Below are positions 10,188 to 48,427 of a stretch of 64,000 nt of DNA, piece after piece. This DNA comes from Paraburkholderia aromaticivorans. Lineage in GTDB: Bacteria; Pseudomonadota; Gammaproteobacteria; Burkholderiales; Burkholderiaceae. The notes under the pieces are model-generated. The model saw nothing but the letters and a program-made list of their open reading frames with translations. It ran no database searches and was not told the DNA's origin. The DNA lies in NCBI RefSeq assembly GCF_012689525.1, contig NZ_CP051516.1:4464001-4528000 (forward strand), in the 5' to 3' direction. A program made the position numbers and the translations under genes. Numbering within the stretch: the first letter of the stretch is position 1; every line of letters starts with the position of its first letter.

Positions 10188-11075
10188 TCAAGCAGTGGCG
10201 TTACCACGCAACCGCACTAGGATGCCTTCCAGCGCGTCCAGATCACCGAAGTCCACCAGCACCTGCCCGCGCCCGCGTCGGCCGAGCTTGATCTTGACCG
10301 TCGCCGCCAGCAAGTCCGACAGTTCTTCTTCGAGCCGCCGAGTATCGCGGCCACCATCGCCATTCGCACGCGCCTTCACCGCTGGCGCAGCCTTTGTAGT
10401 CGCCGTCACTAGCTTTTCGGTTTCGCGCACCGACATGCGCTTGTTGACCACCTGGTTGGCCAACGTGATTTGCGTCGCGGCGTCGACAGCCAGAAGCGCG
10501 CGAGCGTGGCCCATGTCGAGATCGCCGGCCAGCAGCATCGTCTGTACGGGCGACGCCAGGTTGAGCAAACGCAGCAGATTCGATACCGCGCTACGCGAGC
10601 GGCCGACCGACTCCGCCGCCTGTTCATGCGTGAAATTGAACTCGTCGAGCAAGCGCTGGATGCCCTGCGCTTCTTCCAGCGGATTCAGATCTTCACGCTG
10701 AATGTTCTCGATCAGCGCCATCGCGGCGGCAGCCTGATCCGGGACGTTCTTCACCAGCACCGGCACTTCGTCGAGGCCCGCGAGACGCGCCGCGCGAAAC
10801 CGCCGCTCGCCAGCGATGATCTCGTACCTGTCCGCCGACACAGGACGCACGAGGATCGGCTGCATCACCCCTTGCGCGCGGATGCTGGCCGCCAGCTCTT
10901 GCAATGCGCCCTCGTCCATGCGCGTACGTGGCTGATATTTGCCTGCCTGCAACTTGCTAAGCGGCAGCACGTTCGGCGCACCTTCGATCGTTACCGCCTC
11001 GGTAATGTCAGCTGTGCCACCCAGCAATGCTTCCAAGCCGCGGCCCAGTCCCTTCTTTCTTGCTACTGCGTTCAT
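10188..11075 (-). CDS. parB: Chromosome-partitioning protein ParB
   Basis: 295 residues. The N-terminal domain has the CTP-binding GERRFRAARLAGL motif (about residues 92-104), then a helix-turn-helix region (FTHEQAAESVGRSRSAVSNLLRLL) that reads parS, and a C-terminal dimerisation domain. ParB loads on parS and spreads as a CTP-dependent clamp. It lies 18 bp downstream of parA, and two perfect parS sites are within 5 kb. Confidence 0.97.
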   Translation of the reverse strand: MNAVARKKGLGRGLEALLGGTADITEAVTIEGAPNVLPLSKLQAGKYQPRTRMDEGALQELAASIRAQGVMQPILVRPVSADRYEIIAGERRFRAARLAGLDEVPVLVKNVPDQAAAAMALIENIQREDLNPLEEAQGIQRLLDEFNFTHEQAAESVGRSRSAVSNLLRLLNLASPVQTMLLAGDLDMGHARALLAVDAATQITLANQVVNKRMSVRETEKLVTATTKAAPAVKARANGDGGRDTRRLEEELSDLLAATVKIKLGRRGRGQVLVDFGDLDALEGILVRLRGNATA

Positions 11076-12661: not shown

Positions 12662-14616
12662 TGCGTCACCGGCGTGCTGTCGGTGCCCGGCTCGACGGGT
12701 TTCGTCGGACGACGGCCCAAACCGCGCTTCAGATGGACCATCAGCAAGGAGATCGCCGCCGGCGTAATGCCCGAAATACGCGACGCCTGGCCAATGGTTT
12801 CAGGGCGGAATTGCGTCAGTTTCTGGCGCGCTTCGAATGACAAGCCTCGTACTTCCGCGTAGTCCAGCCCTTCGGGCAGACGCGTGCTTTCGTGCGCCTC
12901 GTTTCGTTCGATTTCGCCAGCCTGGCGGTCGATATAGCCCTGATATTTGATGCCGATCTCGATCTGTTCCTTGAGCTGGGCGAGCAGCACGTCGTCTTCT
13001 GCCAAGGTCTCAGGCGCGGCACAGGCGCCGGCACGCAATCCGCAAACCCCGTCGTAGGACACTCCCGGACGACGCAGCAGATCCGCCAAGCTGTACTCGT
13101 GATCGATCGGCTTGCCGAGCAACGCCGTCGCTTCATCGGCCGATAATGTCTTAGGATTGACCCAAGTCGTGCGAAGACGCTCTGTTTCACGTGAAACAGC
13201 GTCGCGCTTGCGGCTGAAAGCGTCCCAGCGAACGTCGTCAACGACGCCCAACTCGCGGCCAACCTCCGTGAGACGCATGTCCGCATTGTCTTCGCGGAGG
13301 CTCAGACGATATTCGGCGCGGCTTGTGAACATGCGATACGGCTCAGACACGCCGCGCGTCACCAGATCGTCGACGAGCACGCCAAGGTAGGCCTGATCGC
13401 GGCGCGGGCACCAAGCTTCCTTGCCTTGCACAAACAGACCCGCGTTGATCCCAGCCAGCAGACCCTGCGCCGCCGCCTCTTCATAGCCGGTCGTGCCGTT
13501 GATCTGACCCGCGAAGAAGAGCCCATTGATCACCTTGGTTTCCAGCGACGCCTTCAACCCGCGCGGGTCGAAGTAGTCATACTCGATCGCATAGCCCGGC
13601 CGCAGGATGTGTGCGTGCTCCAAGCCGCGCATCGACCGCACAAGCTCCAGTTGCACATCGAACGGCAGGCTCGTGGAAATCCCGTTGGGATAGAACTCAT
13701 TGGTCGTCAGCCCTTCTGGCTCAAGGAAGATCTGATGCGATTCCTTTGATGCGAACCGGTGGATCTTGTCCTCGATCGACGGGCAATAGCGCGGCCCCAC
13801 TCCTTCGATCACGCCGGTGTACATCGGCGAACGGTCGAGACCGCCGCGGATGATGTCGTGCGTGCGCTCGTTCGTATGCGTCACCCAGCACGGCACTTGC
13901 CGCGGATGTTGCTCAACGCGCCCGAGAAACGAGAAGACCGGCACCGGATCCAGATCGCCCGGCTGCTCTTCGAGTTGCGAAAAGTCGATCGTGCGACCGT
14001 CGATCCGCGGCGGCGTCCCCGTTTTGAGGCGGCCTTGCGGCAGCTTCAGTTCCTTCAGGCGCGCGGACAGCGAGATCGCAGCTGGATCGCCGGCGCGGCC
14101 GCCGGTGTAGTTATTCAAACCCACGTGAATCTTGCCGTCGAGGAACGTCCCGGCCGTCAGAACCACCGCGCGCGCGCGGAAACGAATCCCCACCTGCGTG
14201 ACAGCGCCGACAACGCGGTCGCCTTCCACCATCAGATCGTCGACTGCTTGCTGGAACAGCCACAAGTTCGGCTGATTCTCCAGCCGATGCCGGATAGCCT
14301 GCTTGTATAGGAGACGATCAGCCTGAGCGCGCGTCGCGCGAACAGCCGGACCCTTCGACGAATTCAGGATACGGAACTGGATCCCGCCCTCGTCCGTCGC
14401 GGCGGCCATTGCACCGCCGAGCGCGTCGACTTCCTTCACGAGATGGCCCTTGCCAATGCCGCCAATCGACGGATTGCAGCTCATCTGTCCGAGGGTTTCG
14501 ATGTTGTGGGTCAGCAGGAGCGTCGTATTACCCATGCGCGCCGAAGCTAAAGCGGCTTCGGTGCCGGCATGACCGCCGCCGACGACGATTACGTCAAATT
14601 CTGAGGGAAAGAGCAT
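12658..14616 (-). CDS. mnmG: tRNA uridine-5-carboxymethylaminomethyl modification enzyme MnmG
   Basis: 652 residues from the ATG at 14616 (a GTG four codons earlier is possible). The N-terminal FAD-binding fold is [16 protein letters not shown], followed by the conserved [28 protein letters not shown] region. With MnmE, which is not in this window, it adds the cmnm5 group to wobble U34. MnmC, encoded at 46-48 kb here, processes that product further. A perfect parS site lies inside the coding sequence. Confidence 0.98.
13183..13198. other. parS: parS centromere site within mnmG
   Basis: TGTTTCACGTGAAACA, a perfect match to the 16-bp bacterial parS consensus, inside mnmG and about 1.3 kb upstream of parA. 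It is the ParB loading site for origin segregation. Confidence 0.95.
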
Positions 14617-14723: not shown

Positions 14724-14759
14724 AAAAAAGCGGTGTGTTTCACGTGAAACACACCGCTT
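14724..14759 (-). terminator. parS: Terminator of livF whose stem contains a perfect parS site
   Basis: A 32-bp perfect palindrome (14728-14759) consists of AAGCGGTG, the exact parS 16-mer (14736-14751) and CACCGCTT. On the minus strand it is followed by a run of T (complement of 14724-14729), so it has the form of an intrinsic terminator for the livF operon and is also a ParB site. Confidence 0.85.
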
Positions 14760-22970: not shown

Positions 22971-23012
22971 ATAAAAAGCGCTGTTGGATATCAATCCAAC
23001 AGCGCTTTCGTC
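22971..23012 (-). terminator. Strong intrinsic terminator downstream of livM
   Basis: A perfect 15-bp stem (22975-22989 / 22994-23008, AAAGCGCTGTTGGAT) with a 4-nt loop is followed on the minus strand by a T-rich tract. It lies 265 bp beyond the livM stop and could end the liv operon or a small RNA starting in that gap. Confidence 0.8.
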
Positions 23013-23273
23013 TGGGCACTGAGTGCCTCATTGTCTCCTCGTTCTCCACCTGCAAAATTCGTGGTGCATCAGAACTGCATGAAGATTAAACGAGCACCCT
23101 GCGTACTACAACTAGCAATTACCCTAGTGGTGCACTGCGGCACTGAATTGGGGCACGTTTGCGCGCGCCTTACCGCGCATGCATTTCGACGCGATTACCG
23201 CTCTGTTTAACCCCGCGCATCAAGATGGCCGGATTATATCGGACGCCGAAGCAATTGCCCATTTCACTGTGCG
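23013..23273 (-). other. Gene-free spacer with a possible small-RNA gene
   Basis: On the minus strand a perfect TATAAT (complement of 23233-23238) is followed about 260 bp later by the strong terminator at 22971. A short GGCAC-TCA-GTGCC hairpin precedes the terminator. No convincing protein gene is present, so an sRNA of roughly 250 nt or less is possible. Read-through from livM would also give this transcript. Confidence 0.3.
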
Positions 23274-41551: not shown

Positions 41552-42190
41552 TTATTGGGCGAAGATCTTCCAGGTCTTCTTCTGGGTGGCGACGTCGGCA
41601 ATTTCATACACCGAGCAGTCGAGGCGCAGATCCGTATCCGACATGTTCAGATCGAGCAACGCGCAATGATGTGGCGTCTTCTTCGGGTTCTTGCTCGGCT
41701 CGAAATGCGTGCAGCTCAGACACATGCGGTGCGGCGGGATCGTGCCTTGCGCTTCCAGCTGATGAACGGTCTTGAGCAGCGTGCGATAGAACACAGCCTG
41801 CTCGTCGTCACGCAACGTGCCGACCGCCTTGGCCAGGAAGTCCGGCCATTGCGCCGCGCGCTTCGCGGCCGTACGGCCACGAGCCGTCAGACGGACCGCG
41901 AGGGCACGGCCGTCGTCGAGGGCCCGGCGCTTTTCGACCAGCCCTTTGGTTTCGAGCGTGCTGACTGCATCACTGGTCGTCGCGGCGGTGAGCGCCGTTT
42001 CACGGGCAATTTCGCCGAGACGCATCGGGCCTTTGCGCTGCATCAGCAAAACCAGAATTTCGCCCTGGGTGGGTGTCAGGCCAGCGCCTTCCGCCCATTC
42101 CCAAGCCTGGCTCCGCATTGCCGTGCTCAATCGCAATAGGCTGTGGGTCACCCGCCCGGTCGCCTGTTCTCCGTATACGCCTTCGCTCAT
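41552..42190 (-). CDS. MarR-family regulator with a C-terminal cysteine cluster
   Basis: 212 residues, longer than ordinary MarR (about 145). Residues 1-145 are the winged helix-turn-helix (GLTPTQGEILVLLMQRKGPMR, DDGRALAVRLTARG wing). The extra tail has four cysteines spaced CLSC...HHC...LDC (about residues 157-193) plus histidines, which could hold zinc or an iron-sulfur cluster. Targets are unknown. Its promoter region overlaps the edge of origin-like module A. Confidence 0.88.
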   Translation of the reverse strand: MSEGVYGEQATGRVTHSLLRLSTAMRSQAWEWAEGAGLTPTQGEILVLLMQRKGPMRLGEIARETALTAATTSDAVSTLETKGLVEKRRALDDGRALAVRLTARGRTAAKRAAQWPDFLAKAVGTLRDDEQAVFYRTLLKTVHQLEAQGTIPPHRMCLSCTHFEPSKNPKKTPHHCALLDLNMSDTDLRLDCSVYEIADVATQKKTWKIFAQ

Positions 42191-42384: not shown

Positions 42385-42624
42385 TTATCCAACACAAGCT
42401 GTGGATAACCACGGGAAAACTCAGGGATGGCTTGTGCGCCGATTCTTGATAAGCACCCAGGCCTGGTCCACCTGTCACAAAGTTGTCCTCGTATACCGCC
42501 GCCGATGCGCCCTCGATCAGCTCAGTTATGGTTTACGCAGCGCATTGACTTTGCAGGGAATTATTCAGTTGTCCACAGGCAGATGCAATGCTTGTTAACT
42601 ACTACTACGTTTGTATACGTTAAC
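42385..42624 (-). other. Origin-like module A (inverted copy) with DnaA boxes
   Basis: Read on the minus strand it has: GTTAAC, ACGTAGTA, AGTTAACAAG, 13 nt, TGTGGACAACT, CATAAC, GTATAC, AACTTT, then GTGGTTATCCACA and GGATAA. The perfect DnaA box is at 42400-42408 and an 8/9 match at 42569-42577. Order and spacing match module B at 45733-45984 in the opposite orientation. It occupies most of the gene-free stretch 42191-42670. Confidence 0.7.
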
Positions 42625-42670
42625 GCTATAAAAACCTAAGGCACGCCGAGCTGGAAAATTAATTTATTGA

Positions 42671-42694
42671 AAAAAACCCGCTCGAGGCGGGTTT
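42671..42694 (-). terminator. Intrinsic terminator of ybdK
   Basis: On the minus strand an 8-bp stem (AAACCCGC / GCGGGTTT, 5-nt loop TCGAG-type) is followed by a T run. It lies 35 bp beyond the ybdK stop codon. Confidence 0.88.
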
Positions 42695-42728
42695 CCTTAC
42701 GGTTTCACGCAGGCCATCCTGCCTTCGG

Positions 42729-43844
42729 TTAGGCCCGCCACTGCAAACACTGCTGTCTGACGGCTTCATGCAGAGACTTTTCCCGTTCGACCACACCGCG
42801 TAGCCAGGTTGCATCGTTGACCTGACCGCGAGCGATCGCGCCGATCTCGGCAAGGGCGTTGCCCGAACCCAACGCTTCGGCGTGCGGAGCAATCAGATCC
42901 AGCGTTTCGAGGATGTCTTCGGAAATCGTCTTGCGCTCGCCCGTTTGCGGATTGATGCAGGTGCCGGCCAGACCGAAGCGGCATGCTTCGAAACGATTGA
43001 ACGTGTAGACGAGGTAATCGTCTTCTTGCGGCGTGATCGGTTTGTCGAGCAGCAGATGCCGGGCAAGCGTCTGGATGTAGCAGGCAATCGCCGCCGCGCG
43101 ATCCACCGAAAACGGCGTGTCCATCACACGAACTTCGATCGTGCCGAAACCCGGCTTCGGCCGAATGTCCCAGTAAAAATCTTTCATGCTGTTGACGACA
43201 CCGGTGTGAACCATCTTCGAGAAATATTCCTCGAAGCTGTCCCACGTCAGCACGAACGGCGCGCGGCCCGACAGCGGGAACGCGAAGACGGAATTCAGTC
43301 GTGCCGAATGAAAACCGGTATCGACACCCTGCACGAACGGCGACGACGCGGACAATGCGATGAAATGCGGAATGAAGCGCGACATCGAATGCAGCAGATA
43401 GAGCGCGCTGTTCGGATCAGGGCACCCGATATGTACGTGCTGGCCGAACACCGTGAATTGCTTGGCAAGATAGCCGTACAACTCGGAGATGTACTGAAAG
43501 CGCGGCGTATCGACGATCTGCCGCTCGCTCCATTGCTGGAACGCGTGCGTGCCGCCGCCGCATAAGCCGACGTTCAGGTGATCTGCTGCTGAAACCAGCG
43601 TGTCGCGAATCTTGCGCAAGTCGGTGACGGCCTGTTCATGCGTCGTGCAAATGCCGGTCGACAACTCGATCATGCTTTCGGTGATTTCCGGCGTGATGTT
43701 GCCGGGGATCTTTTCGTCCTTGATGAGGCGCAGCAGATCCGAGCCGGCTTTGGTCAGATCATAGTCGTGCGTATTGACGATCTGCATCTCGAGTTCGACA
43801 CCGAATGTGAACGGTTTCGAATCGATGAAGGGTTCGAGTGACAT
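42729..43844 (-). CDS. ybdK: Carboxylate-amine ligase YbdK (glutamate-cysteine ligase type 2 family)
   Basis: 371 residues, the family length. It has the N-terminal [13 protein letters not shown] glutamate-rich motif, [15 protein letters not shown] and [12 protein letters not shown], all characteristic of the GCS2/YbdK group. Members ligate an amine to glutamate weakly in E. coli; in some bacteria they are annotated as glutathione-pathway enzymes. The in vivo reaction here is not certain. It sits between the two origin-like modules. Confidence 0.92.
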
Positions 43845-43970
43845 GGCGTCCCCTGAGTCAGGTCGGCCGGGTGTGGGTCACATGCCCGGCCGTTTTTGAA
43901 TCGAATTAAGTCGGATAAAGCGCGTCAAGCATCGAGCTTTGAACGGCGCAGCACGCTCATTGGCTTGCGC

Positions 43971-45176
43971 TTACGCTTCGCGCCGTTCAGCGACGAGCGC
44001 AAGGCTGCGATAGACGAGCCACGGCCCGAGAATCTGCAGCACGAAAATGGAACACATCACGATCGCGCGCAGTTGCGGATCGAAGTTCGGATACAGGTTG
44101 TAGGTGTCGTCGACCAGCAGATACGCGAGCGCCGACATCGGCGATAAGGACAGACCGAGCGCCATCCCCTGCTTCCAGTTCAAACCGCTCGGCTTGGCAA
44201 ACGCCAGCACGCCGACCAGTTTAGCGACAAGGCGCGCAACAATCAGACCGAGCGCCGCGACGCCGCCAAGCGCGATGTCTTTCCATTCGAACGAAGTCAG
44301 CGTCAGCACGAACAGAATCACCGTCAACAACCAGCCGGCCGTGCCGAAGTGCTCCGGCCACAACTGCGGACGCGCTTCATGATTCTTCACGATGATGCCG
44401 GCGGCCAGCAACGCAAGAATGGTCGACAGCTTGAACAGATGCGCGACCGCGATGGCCAGCAGCACGAGGCCGAACAACGCGACGAACGAGTGCTCGTCCT
44501 GCATGTTCAAACGTCGATAAAAGAAGGTGCAGGTGCGCGCGAGCAGATACGCGAGCACGAGCGAGCCGACCAGCAGATAAAGCGGCTGCAGGATGGTCGC
44601 GAATACGTTGCCGTACATCTCCTGATGCAGCCAGCTCGACACGAGCTTTTCGATCACCACGGCGTACATGCTGTTCAGGGCGGTCAAAGTCAACAGACGC
44701 TGGGTGACCTGGCCTTCCGCGCGCAATTCCGTTTTCAGCTGAATCACCATGGCCGGCGACGTCGCCATGGCGATCGCGGCGAGCACGGTTGCCACCATCA
44801 GCGGCACGTTCAGGAACAGCAAGACAGGCAACACGAGCGCGAATGTCAGCGTGGCTTCAGCGACGCTCGACAGAATCAGCCAGGGATTGCGACGAATCCA
44901 GCGCAAATCGAGCCGGCTGCCGAGTTCGAACAACAGCAAACCGAGCGCGACGTCGAGCAGCGGCCGCGCCGCGCTCGCGGAATCGGCATCGATCACGCCC
45001 GAACCGGCCGCGCCGGCAATCAGACCAATGACCGCATAGCCGGAAATGCGCGGTAAACGCCACGCGCGATAGCACAGCTCACCGCACAGACCGGCGGCGA
45101 GCAATGCGAGACCAGCCCAAAAAATGGCGTCGGGTGAAAGCGGCCAGGCTGGAAAAAATGAAAACGCCGAATTCAT
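43971..45176 (-). CDS. CPA2-type cation/proton antiporter, KefB-like membrane domain
   Basis: 401 residues with about twelve hydrophobic segments. The Na+/H+ exchanger family motifs are RISGYAVIGLIAGAAGSG near residue 43 and LDVALGLLLFELGSRLDL near 74. It has no C-terminal TrkA-N (RCK) domain, unlike KefB/KefC, so it resembles short Na+/H+ or K+/H+ antiporters. The ion is not predictable from sequence. It is 126 bp upstream of ybdK on the same strand. Confidence 0.9.
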   Translation of the reverse strand: MNSAFSFFPAWPLSPDAIFWAGLALLAAGLCGELCYRAWRLPRISGYAVIGLIAGAAGSGVIDADSASAARPLLDVALGLLLFELGSRLDLRWIRRNPWLILSSVAEATLTFALVLPVLLFLNVPLMVATVLAAIAMATSPAMVIQLKTELRAEGQVTQRLLTLTALNSMYAVVIEKLVSSWLHQEMYGNVFATILQPLYLLVGSLVLAYLLARTCTFFYRRLNMQDEHSFVALFGLVLLAIAVAHLFKLSTILALLAAGIIVKNHEARPQLWPEHFGTAGWLLTVILFVLTLTSFEWKDIALGGVAALGLIVARLVAKLVGVLAFAKPSGLNWKQGMALGLSLSPMSALAYLLVDDTYNLYPNFDPQLRAIVMCSIFVLQILGPWLVYRSLALVAERREA

Positions 45177-45732
45177 CGTGATGGGTTCTCCTTAGCAGCA
45201 ACGGCAGGCGACACGAACCGGCGCAAACACCGGCGAGCGGGGTGGGCACATGAAGCGCTCACTGTCGCGATCGCTTCGCGTGGCCAGCGTTGCGAGTTTT
45301 CAACGATCGGATGATCTGAATGCGCGGCAGCAGCAGGGAGCCTGGCGCATTCGGGGTGCGGCCGTAGCAACCGGCACGGTGAAAGAACGCCGTCGACTTT
45401 GAATCAGATTCTGATTGCGCGGCACCGTTCCGTTTACTGCGTGTGCCGCTGTAGAGACAAGGCACGACGCGGAAAAGAAGGCGATTGTGCCATAGCTTTT
45501 TCAGCCTTGACCGAAAAGGCGCGAACATGCTGGTAAAACGGTAAAAACGTACGTTATCTCGCCGACATGAGGAAAAACCGACCGTTTTGGGCGCGAATCC
45601 GGCCGGGCAGACGGCTAGTTTGACCGCGGCAGATGTGCTTTTCGGGACATCGCCGCAGAAGTTTTGCACGGTTTAGGAGGGGGCAAGCTCCGCCGATAAG
45701 CTCTGCTCCAGCCACGGTCTTTCTGTTTACAG
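45177..45732. other. Gene-free spacer upstream of the antiporter gene
   Basis: 556 bp with no supportable gene. Several GTTTAC or GTAAAC hexamers recur here and in the adjoining module (for example near 45430, 45531, 45723), suggesting protein-binding sites. The antiporter promoter must lie here but no clear consensus is seen. Confidence 0.5.
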
Positions 45733-45984
45733 GTTTACCGTATGTATACGTAGTAACAGTTAACAAGGTGCCTCGGTTTCTGTGGATAACTCCTGTTTAC
45801 CGAAATGAATCATCGCTTTGCCGACGGCATAACCGGATGCACAGCATGTGGGCGAGCGGCGCGTATACAAGGGTAACTTTTGGCGATTTTCGGCGACGGC
45901 AAAGTTACCCCGTTTACGTCCACAACGGTTCCACACCCGTTGCGCCGGTAAACGGCGTGGTTATCCACAACTCTCAGTGCATAA
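45733..45984 (+). other. Origin-like module B with DnaA boxes, candidate oriC
   Basis: It contains GTTTAC, ACGTAGTA, AGTTAACAAG (to 45767), 13 nt, TGTGGATAACT (perfect DnaA box 45781-45789), CATAAC (45828), GTATAC (45863), GGGTAACTTT and its inverted AAAGTTACCC (45871-45880 / 45901-45910), then TTATCCACA (perfect, 45961-45969) and a near-match box at 45977-45985. It lies between the antiporter gene and mnmC. Confidence 0.7.
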
Positions 45985-46018
45985 CTCATCTGCCGCGCGT
46001 GCTAGGGGGAGCCTGCAG

Positions 46019-47989
46019 TTAACTCACCGTCCCCTGACGCAATGCGCGCAACAGGAAGCGCGCCGGGTCGACGTCTTCAGCCAGATCCCGTTCGAGTGGC
46101 CACGGTTCGCCTTCCAGTTGCGAGGCGATCAGTTCCGCGCCGAGTGCCGCCCATACGAGGCCTCGCGAACCGTACGCAAAAGCACCGTACAGGCCGTCCG
46201 CGCGGGGCAGATCGAGCGGCCATGCGCCCCGCAGACGCTGGGCATCGAGCGCTGCCTGCGCTTCGTCGGCGAGCTGGCCGATCATCGGCATGCGATCGCT
46301 GGTGACGCAGCGAAACGCGACGCGTCCGGTCAAGTCCGCCGACCGAACCCGATCGACGACTCCCGCGAACGCCGGCAGCATCTGCGCGACGCGCTCGAGG
46401 TTTTCCATGTGGCCGTCCGCGCGCAGCGATGTCTCGGGGTCGTCGAGCTCATAAGTGGCGCCGGTTAACGTCACGCCGTCCGCCAGCGGCACCGCGTAGC
46501 CTTCGCCGATCACCGGCATCTGAAGCGGCGGCAGCACCGTGCCGGCCGGCAGCAAAGTGAGTTGGCCGCGAATGCTGCGAGTCGGCGCGCGCTGCAAACC
46601 GGCGATGCGCGCGGCATCGTGCGCGCTGGCGACGATCACCACCGGCGCATGGGCGATGGCCTCGCCCGAGGTGTCGAATACGGTCCATTGGCCGCTGGAC
46701 CGCTCGATCCGCGCGACGTCGACACCGAAGCGGCGCTCAAGCAGTTGACCCGCTGCAGCGCACTGCGCGGCGCACAGCGACGCCGGGTCGATCCAGCCAC
46801 CTTGTGGAAAGAACCATCCGCCGCGCGCGAGCGGCATCCCGGCGAGCCGCTGAGCTTCGTCTGAAGAGACAGGCGTCACGTAGTCGGACGGATAGCCGAA
46901 CGCGTCGATCGCTTCGCTGATCGAACGGGCTTCATCGTCGTCCGCGGCAATCTGCAACAAGCCTTGGCCGCCGCGCAACGGCGCGTGTCCGAGCCGCTCG
47001 AGCGCGGCCCAACGTCTGAGCGCATACAGAAAGCCGGCACGCGTGACGCGCGAGGCGACGCTGTCGTCGCGCGAAATCATGGGATGGAACACGCCGGCCG
47101 GATTGCCTGATGCCTCCTGCGCCACCGAAGCGTGCCGCTCCAGAGACGTGACGCGCCAGCCGCGCGCGGCGAGCCGTTCGATCACCGCGCAGCCGGCCAA
47201 CCCCGCGCCGATCACCACCGCATGCCTTTCGTCGACCGCGAGCGGCGCCGGCGGCTCATAACGGCGCACGCGCCAGCGCGGCGCGAAATGGCCGACCAGC
47301 ATCGCCCGTTTCCAGCCGAAGCCGTCTACCTTGCGGTACTCGAAGCCGCATTGCGTCAACGCGCGTTTGATGTCGCCGGCGCTGCTGTAGGTGGCGAAGG
47401 TGGCGCCCTCGCCTGCCAGCCGCGCGAGTGCCTTGAAGATCGCCGGGCTCCAGAGTTCGGGATTCTTGGCCGGCGCGAAGCCGTCGAGGTAAAACGCATC
47501 GGCGCGCAGCCTCAAGGCAGGCAGGCTCTCCTGCGCGTCGCCGAAAACCAGCGTGAGCACCACGCGCCCTTCATCGAATTCAAGCCGATGCGTGCCGGGG
47601 ACGAGCATCGGCCAGGCGTTCGCGAGCGCTTCCGCGAGGGCGGCAATCCCCGGATCGGAAATCGTCGCTGCAACCACCTTGCGTAAATCGGCGACGGTAA
47701 AGGGATGCTTCTCGGTCGACACGAAATGCAGCCGCTCGCAGCGCGACGAGTCGGCGCGCCACGCGGCCCAGGTCATCAGAAAATTGATGCCCATGCCGAA
47801 GCCGGTTTCCAGCACCGTGAAAATGCGGCGGCCCTGCCACCGGTCGGGCAGCGAATTGCCGCGCAGGAATACGTAATGAGCCTGTTCGAGACAGCCTACG
47901 GCGCTGTGATAGATGTCGTCGTAAAGCGGCGAAAAAGGCGTGCCGTTGTGGCGAAAAGCGAGGACGGCGGGGATCAGCGGATCAGTCAT
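46019..47989 (-). CDS. mnmC: Bifunctional tRNA wobble-uridine enzyme MnmC
   Basis: 656 residues from the ATG at 47989; the 35 codons upstream look unrelated. Residues 1-245 are the SAM methyltransferase domain (VLETGFGMGINFLMTW; DAFYLDGFAPAKNPELW). Residues 255-640 are the FAD oxidase domain (AVVIGAGLAGCAVIERLAARG). It removes the carboxymethyl group from cmnm5U34 made by MnmEG and methylates the amine to mnm5U34. MnmG is encoded 32 kb away in the same window. Confidence 0.97.
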   Translation of the reverse strand: MTDPLIPAVLAFRHNGTPFSPLYDDIYHSAVGCLEQAHYVFLRGNSLPDRWQGRRIFTVLETGFGMGINFLMTWAAWRADSSRCERLHFVSTEKHPFTVADLRKVVAATISDPGIAALAEALANAWPMLVPGTHRLEFDEGRVVLTLVFGDAQESLPALRLRADAFYLDGFAPAKNPELWSPAIFKALARLAGEGATFATYSSAGDIKRALTQCGFEYRKVDGFGWKRAMLVGHFAPRWRVRRYEPPAPLAVDERHAVVIGAGLAGCAVIERLAARGWRVTSLERHASVAQEASGNPAGVFHPMISRDDSVASRVTRAGFLYALRRWAALERLGHAPLRGGQGLLQIAADDDEARSISEAIDAFGYPSDYVTPVSSDEAQRLAGMPLARGGWFFPQGGWIDPASLCAAQCAAAGQLLERRFGVDVARIERSSGQWTVFDTSGEAIAHAPVVIVASAHDAARIAGLQRAPTRSIRGQLTLLPAGTVLPPLQMPVIGEGYAVPLADGVTLTGATYELDDPETSLRADGHMENLERVAQMLPAFAGVVDRVRSADLTGRVAFRCVTSDRMPMIGQLADEAQAALDAQRLRGAWPLDLPRADGLYGAFAYGSRGLVWAALGAELIASQLEGEPWPLERDLAEDVDPARFLLRALRQGTVS

Positions 47990-48427
47990 GCGCGACGGAA
48001 AATGACGCTCGGAAAAATGCCCCCAGACCTGTCGCTTCGCGCCAGGCGCCCCGAGGGCGGTGAGAAAACTTGGGGCGGCCCGGCGGTTACTCACGCGCGG
48101 GTAGAACGTTACCGCGCGCGCGCAGCTCGCCGGACGGCGAAATAGACGCGCCGAACGTTGGCAAAAACCAACGCCAGGCCCCGTCCATACTGGGTTTCAG
48201 GCCTCGGTTGAAGGTCGCCGAACGCAAAAATTGCGATTTCCTTGCGATATCGACCCCGGAACCGCGTAAATCTTCGAAACCCTTGTCCTGATTGGGTTTG
48301 CGCTGCGCTATCATAGCAAGCGCCGCGAAGGGAGCGGCAGCACGGCCGACGGACAGTCATCAGTCCGGCGCTATTGGTCCGGAGGGGATCCGGAGCCGGC
48401 GCTGCTCGACGGCGCGGCCCGCGCACG

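Follow-up and report, generated by a model that had tools for sequence, protein, structure and literature searches.

Paired, mirror-image oriC-like modules in the chromosome-1 origin region of Paraburkholderia aromaticivorans and related genera

Introduction

Where does chromosome 1 of Paraburkholderia aromaticivorans begin to replicate, and does it do so from one unit or from two? The question is raised by a 64-kb stretch of its 10.84-Mb, four-contig genome (C3:4464001-4528000, contig C3 being NZ_CP051516.1), referred to here as the window and numbered from its first base. A first-pass annotation of this sequence had described two origin-like modules, here called A and B, which carry shared blocks in the same order and lie in mirror image on either side of two genes, and had proposed them as a twin origin. 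The modules, the blocks and their order are all present as described. Our analysis places the origin region of chromosome 1 at A and B, and we favor, with moderate confidence, the reading that each is a complete oriC unit laid out like that of Escherichia coli and sufficient for initiation, the two being duplicated oriCs that jointly form that region.

Two modules with the layout of E. coli oriC

The modules consist of the following parts, with offsets counted from the start of the inner DnaA box:

42385..42640, minus strand: module A, whole
42592..42607, minus strand: A, DnaA-trio element TAGTAGTAGTTAACAA, next G, then the 13-nt spacer
42569..42577, minus strand: A, inner DnaA box (R1 position) TGTGGACAA
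42545..42549, minus strand: A, IHF-like core GTCAA, +28 from R1
42525..42530, minus strand: A, CATAAC at +47
42400..42408, minus strand: A, outer DnaA box (R4 position) TTATCCACA, +169 from R1
45690..45990, plus strand: module B, whole
45751..45766, plus strand: B, DnaA-trio element TAGTAACAGTTAACAA, next G, then the 13-nt spacer
45781..45789, plus strand: B, inner DnaA box (R1 position) TGTGGATAA
45809..45813, plus strand: B, IHF-like core ATCAT, +28 from R1
45828..45833, plus strand: B, CATAAC at +47
45961..45969, plus strand: B, outer DnaA box (R4 position) TTATCCACA, +180 from R1

In both modules an adenine-thymine (AT)-rich stretch, GTATAC, the trios (GTAGTA..AGTTAACAAG), 13 nt and TGTGGAYAAC follow one another in that order, and the outer box is inverted relative to the inner one. 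A second GTATAC is located at +81 in A and +82 in B; the spacing of 88 or 98 nt reported earlier is correct when measured from the start of GTATAC to the start of TTATCCACA. At 18 nt past the start of the outer box, A has GGATAA and B has GCATAA. The AT content to the left of the inner box is in the 99.4th percentile for A and the 99.0th for B. The two modules stand in mirror image 3.1 kb apart, with ~3.2 kb between their inner boxes.

E. coli oriC (NC_000913.3, 3925744-3925975) shares with A and B the inner box, a core at +28 (ATCAA) and an AT-rich side beside the inner box. Its inverted outer box is found at +180, the same as in B, whereas the box spacing of A is one helical turn shorter. 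Both the distance of the inverted box and the position at a skew minimum (see below) are those of the E. coli layout. Unlike A and B, the E. coli origin is a single copy beside mnmG and mioC, carries GATC rather than GTWWAC sites, and has a less clear trio element. On the trio side, the modules resemble the DnaA-trio basal unwinding system, for which excerpts of PMC6669920 and PMC8287927 give a DnaA box, a spacer (most commonly 13 bp, PMC8287927) and repeated TAG-type trinucleotides; with the consensus 3'-GAT-5' from the former, A and B each have a box, a spacer of ~13 nt and repeated trios. They differ from that system in that there are two of them, in mirror image.

This combination is not a chance occurrence. 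Exact copies of TTATCCACA number three in the window, every one of them inside A or B. The inverted box pair (TGTGGAYAA-N155-185-TTRTCCACA) occurs genome-wide at two places, which are A and B, while the same pattern read backwards occurs at none. The trio string GTAGTARNAGTTAAC is found at four places in the genome, all on C3 (A, B and two more), and its control at none.

The origin region of chromosome 1

In the 509-kb stretch scanned, the cumulative guanine-cytosine (GC) skew reaches its minimum at window position 42,878, between A and B. The mean minimum over 73 relatives is at 42,908, and the quartiles of the per-locus minima run from 42,824 to 45,092. An initiation peak next to dnaA had been named in the first pass as an example of what would refute the twin origin. 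The best DnaA match begins at base 1 of C3, where it is cut, and would lie ~64 kb right of B if C3 is circular. No skew minimum was found there in the 509-kb scan, nor any trio match within 13 kb, and dnaA was rejected as the origin; the final 2.9 kb of C3 ahead of dnaA hold one TTWTNCACA box. A skew minimum between A and B, ~64 kb from dnaA, marks the A-B region as the origin region of chromosome 1. A search for box clusters (three TTWTNCACA in 400 bp) was discarded because A and B themselves contain no such cluster. Two parS-like sites, each exact to the consensus, are also found in the window:

13184..13197: parS-like site
14737..14750: parS-like site

Conservation of spacing and sequence

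The genes around the modules are:

41552..42190, minus strand: MarR-family gene, outer side of A
42729..43844, minus strand: core gene 1, GCS2 family (PF04107; ybdK in the first-pass annotation)
43971..45176, minus strand: core gene 2, sodium/hydrogen exchanger family (antiporter; PF00999)
46019..48094, minus strand: mnmC-like gene (methyltransferase and flavin adenine dinucleotide oxidoreductase), outer side of B, putative start

As relatives we took 80 loci (the best 80 of 136) of Paraburkholderia, Trinickia and strains labelled Burkholderia, found by the antiporter protein, together with loci from a family-wide genome set. Wherever all members were found, the order was MarR, slot A, core gene 1, core gene 2, slot B, mnmC. 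Conservation of the spacing between inner and outer box had been put forward as a test of the twin origin, and the spacing is indeed kept: 168-170 nt in 89 of the 97 slot-A loci with a scoreable pair, and 180-181 nt in 96 of 101 for slot B (no pair was obtained from 3 of 100 A slots and 1 of 102 B slots, and three loci are second copies of genomes already counted). The TCA core at +28 is present in 71 of 72 aligned copies of A and in at least 54 of 63 of B (top classes). In alignments of the copies of Paraburkholderia type, 58 for A and 53 for B, the trio has a mean column identity of 0.95-0.96 and the inner box one of 0.99, values that are partly by construction because the copies were selected by trio and box. 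This selection does not affect the +28 core (0.98 in A, 0.88 in B) or the block around GTATAC (0.88 and 0.92). The corresponding values are 0.72 and 0.71 for the spacer and 0.62 and 0.48 farther upstream.

Many of the blocks named in the first pass (GTTTAC, GTATAC, GTTAAC, GTAAAC) are instances of a single motif, GTWWAC, which occurs 87 times in 509 kb and whose two densest 300-bp intervals are B and A:

42491, 42531, 42594, 42613, 42619 (42491..42624): five GTWWAC sites in A
45725, 45733, 45744, 45759, 45795, 45863, 45912, 45948 (45725..45953): eight GTWWAC sites in B, with a ninth at 46018

Other genera, which we refer to by number, are likewise enriched. For example, g11 has 4.9 sites per 285-bp module vs 0.04 outside; as the search pattern itself contains one GTWWAC per module, the true excess is lower by ~1. 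According to excerpts of PMC7364216, B. cenocepacia methylates GTWWAC and CACAG, and both motifs are located at its origins. As a separate observation, three g3 loci (L176, L178, L180) have 0.14-0.23 GTWWAC, mostly GTATAC, per 285 bp outside the module, vs 0.04-0.08 in other genera.

Twin, tandem and single modules across the family

Allowing up to two mismatches, the trio followed by 13 nt and the box (the trio-box match) was detected in 181 of 299 family genomes, with none in any row of the reversed control. The box pair by itself was detected in 209 of 299, and one genome also matched its control. Within 11 genera (g1, g7, g8, g10, g11, g12, g14, g16, g17, g18, g25), 179 of 183 genomes had a trio-box match. 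An order-wide search of 300 genomes gave matches in 5 of the 10 from the same family and in 4 of the 290 others, once each and with 2 mismatches, while one other genome matched the reversed control.

Slots were counted over 134 distinct loci, after removal of three double-counted ones, with the same mismatch limit. The mirror-twin clade, made up of the 80 antiporter-chosen loci plus g8, g10, g12, g14, g17, g18 and g25, contains 107 loci, and the mirrored A-B pair recurs in eight genera. In this clade the trio-box match of B is present in all loci but one (106 of 107), including 80 of the 80 antiporter-chosen ones; the sole locus without it, L213, is cut within the A side, and its genome, G167, has a match there. 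Both slots are readable in 105 loci, 74 with mirrored A and B and 31 with B only, and in several loci the outer box of A is kept while the trio is lost. P. xenovorans LB400 (L027) is one of the loci with both modules. The mirror-image twin proposed in the first pass is supported, but in 31 of the 105 loci A no longer gives a trio-box match, which goes against a simple pair of equals.

Nor is the twin pair a universal layout. All 23 g11 loci have A only. In g7 and g16, 3 of the 4 loci have two plus-strand (tandem) modules in slot B; in the fourth, L193 (G036), the two modules are tandem as well and neither core gene gave a match. A core deletion that left A and B behind was considered for L193 and rejected, because both copies have the same orientation, as they do in g7 and the remaining g16 loci. 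In the outgroup genera g3, g5 and g24, one A-orientation module with a variant trio stands to the right of a SET gene in 6 of 6 loci read and in L323; two g3 genomes (G002, G084) carry a further box pair at another place, and the flanks read there contain no trio (L177, L179). Separately, the 1.2-Mb g11 genome G010 has identical trio-box matches at C2:41732 and C2:59010, on one strand, 17 kb apart and with 2 mismatches each, which could be a duplication or an assembly effect.

A tree of 11 origin-adjacent genes (32 rows, some of which lack many of the genes) has g3, g5 and g24 outermost (by rooting), followed by g11, by g7 with g16, and by the mirror-twin genera, with support of 0.98 for g7, g16 and the mirror clade together and 0.81 for the mirror clade. 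This tree was used because GyrB identities (81-84% for g11, 81% for g7/g16) cannot order g11 against g7/g16. Since the outgroups and g11 have a single module in the A position or orientation, B looks like a derived second copy. On the simplest reading, the A position would be ancestral, B would have been gained after the g11 split, probably by duplication, and A would have decayed or been lost in several lineages. The comparison between genera points to a single ancestral start site that acquired a second copy, which most of the related genera kept.

Further modules on the same chromosome

The picture of two origin-like modules holds for the A-B region, but not for the chromosome, which has two more modules of the trio-13-box type:

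C3:4,301,101-4,301,139, minus strand: M3, 209 kb left of B
C3:13,839-13,877, minus strand: M4, 78 kb right of B

At +28 both read ATCAA, and each has a degenerate outer box with an inverted box beside it; across the genus this core varies more in M4, where 7 of 11 read ATCAA. Among the 41 genomes of the window's genus, 11 have two trio-box matches, 21 have three and 9 have four. B, M3 and M4 are on one contig in 13 genomes (three taken as circular), with M3 124-294 kb and M4 46-125 kb from B. Their order and orientation agree in 13 of 13, an agreement in order that is partly by definition, since M3 and M4 can be told apart by their neighbors in only 10 and 9 of the 13 (our own included) and otherwise by side. 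Of the genus loci compared, all 11 for M3 and all 10 for M4 retain at least one gene that neighbors the module in our own genome. In G236, M3 and M4 each carry 2 mismatches. The skew shows no lasting reversal at M3 or M4, which rules them out as main origins.

Third matches in g10 and g12 are at other distances and beside other neighbors than M3 and M4. Many of the listed g12 genomes (e.g. G088, C2:21634) have a third trio-box match of distinct form, TAGTGATAGTTAACAAG...CAGTGGATAA, tens of kb from B. Between gyrB and M4 there is a Wadjet-type set (matches to JetA, JetB, JetC and JetD), and after it a gene for a reverse transcriptase whose best PADLOC model is 'RT_other' (L106:5179-13303, C3:5.2-13.3 kb). 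Near the start of contig C2, inverted TGTGGATAACT boxes at 10979-10989 and 11007-11017, 28 nt apart, are possibly part of the second replicon's origin. The sole Rfam match of the window at the gathering threshold is the Burkholderia small RNA ncS01 (RF02865), at 22972-23076.

How the modules might act, and what else they could be

If A and B are two oriC units, DnaA would occupy the inner and outer boxes of each and IHF would bend the DNA in between. A DnaA filament growing from the inner box would cross the 13-nt spacer onto the trios and open the AT-rich stretch, where the helicase would be loaded, so that the opening sides of A and B would face one another across the two core genes. Either unit would probably be enough for initiation, the firing unit passively replicating the other, and if both fired, the inner forks would meet within 3 kb at little cost. 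The dense GTWWAC sites may delay re-firing of both hemimethylated copies, like GATC in E. coli. The anatomy, spacing and conservation of the modules, their position at the skew minimum and the way they are distributed among genera are observed; DnaA and IHF binding, unwinding, the sufficiency of each unit, the role of methylation and duplication as the source of the second copy are inferred. The natural occurrence of A alone (23 of 23 g11 loci) and of B alone (31 loci) was counted in favor of each unit being sufficient.

Several observations weigh against two sufficient units. The skew is unable to separate A from B. Skew at fourfold-degenerate sites was considered as proof of a switch at B, the core genes having +0.096 and +0.176 vs -0.056 for mnmC and -0.043 for CobW (80, 80, 80 and 79 loci). 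It was rejected because the same core genes give +0.077 and +0.177 in 22 g11 loci with slot A only, so that this skew belongs to the genes. The decay of A in 31 of 105 loci makes A dispensable in those lineages. Four of the 183 genomes in the 11 genera (G007, G056, G173, G221) have no trio-box match within two mismatches. The IHF-like cores of A and B resemble the IHF consensus without a full match. No locus lacks every module, a result that is unbiased only for the 80 antiporter-chosen loci, most others being match-selected. Finally, excerpts of PMC6379261 place the putative chromosome-1 origin of C. necator NH9 around dnaA.

A possible, though doubtful, alternative is that only B fires, with A as a displaced ancestral origin that either titrates or recycles DnaA (datA/DARS-like) or is slowly decaying. 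The retention of the trio-box match by B in 106 of 107 loci, compared with 74 of 105 for A, fits this, as do the A copies that keep an outer box without the trio. However, intact A copies keep the trio in its 13-nt register over eight genera, which titration alone would not need, and A is the sole module in every g11 locus. The known datA and DARS sites have DnaA boxes and an IHF site and are not known to have an unwinding element, whereas A and B carry trios in register; decayed copies of A could still act in a datA/DARS-like manner.

We regard it as improbable that A and B form one bipartite origin whose halves must cooperate by looping, in the manner of the B. subtilis and H. pylori origins (both named in PMC4403523). 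There are two gene-separated DnaA-box clusters here, as in those origins, and their mirror layout and close spacing are kept in eight genera. But each cluster has its own trios, where bipartite origins are not known to have more than one unwinding site, and the two are not always together, as the B-only and A-only loci demonstrate. Last, although A is in the upstream region of the MarR gene and B in that of the antiporter gene, it is very improbable that the modules are regulatory DnaA sites of these neighbors rather than origins, given the skew minimum at A-B, the module pair of G036 with no match for either core gene, and the way M3 and M4 hold their position while their neighbors change.

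Relation to described origins

The first-pass annotation knew of no description of such an origin in this group. This is only partly right. Searches of the open-licence literature gave no description of the mirrored pair for the family, but the region itself has probably been reported already. For B. cenocepacia J2315, excerpts of Du et al. 2016 (PMC4948915) describe a second DnaA-box cluster close to both nucleotide 1 and the skew minimum, and call the exact origin unclear. For C. metallidurans CH34, excerpts of Janssen et al. 2010 (PMC2864759) describe a 213-nt stretch that contains three perfect boxes and is located at the skew switch, ~90 kb from dnaA. Both are probably the same region as A-B, and the excerpts of neither paper describe two equivalent mirrored modules. 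The mirrored pair is likewise absent from Gao 2015 (PMC4403523) and from the excerpts of the C. necator NH9 paper (PMC6379261). Marker-frequency data have been reported for B. cenocepacia in 10-kb bins (PMC4948915) and for Burkholderia and Cupriavidus strains (PMC13342612).

More than one origin-like region per chromosome has been reported elsewhere. For example, P. aeruginosa has two autonomously replicating origins, and chromosome 1 of R. pickettii 12D has putative double origins 291 kb apart, beside hemE and dnaA (PMC4403523). That paper (Gao 2015) tabulates such putative pairs and considers two functional origins to be unproven. Unlike these cases, the pair described here is mirrored, flanks two genes at the skew minimum and is found over eight genera.

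Implications

Two sufficient units at A and B would account for the exact chromosome-1 origin of B. cenocepacia having been left unclear, and suggest how an origin could move without ever being lost. We consider it unlikely, though worth stating, that chromosome 1 is naturally multi-origin, with A and B both firing in the population and M3 and M4 as dormant or occasional extra origins. If this were true, the gain of a second origin followed by the loss of the old one would be a way in which bacterial origins move. The natural single, tandem and decayed versions found over eight genera make the question testable.

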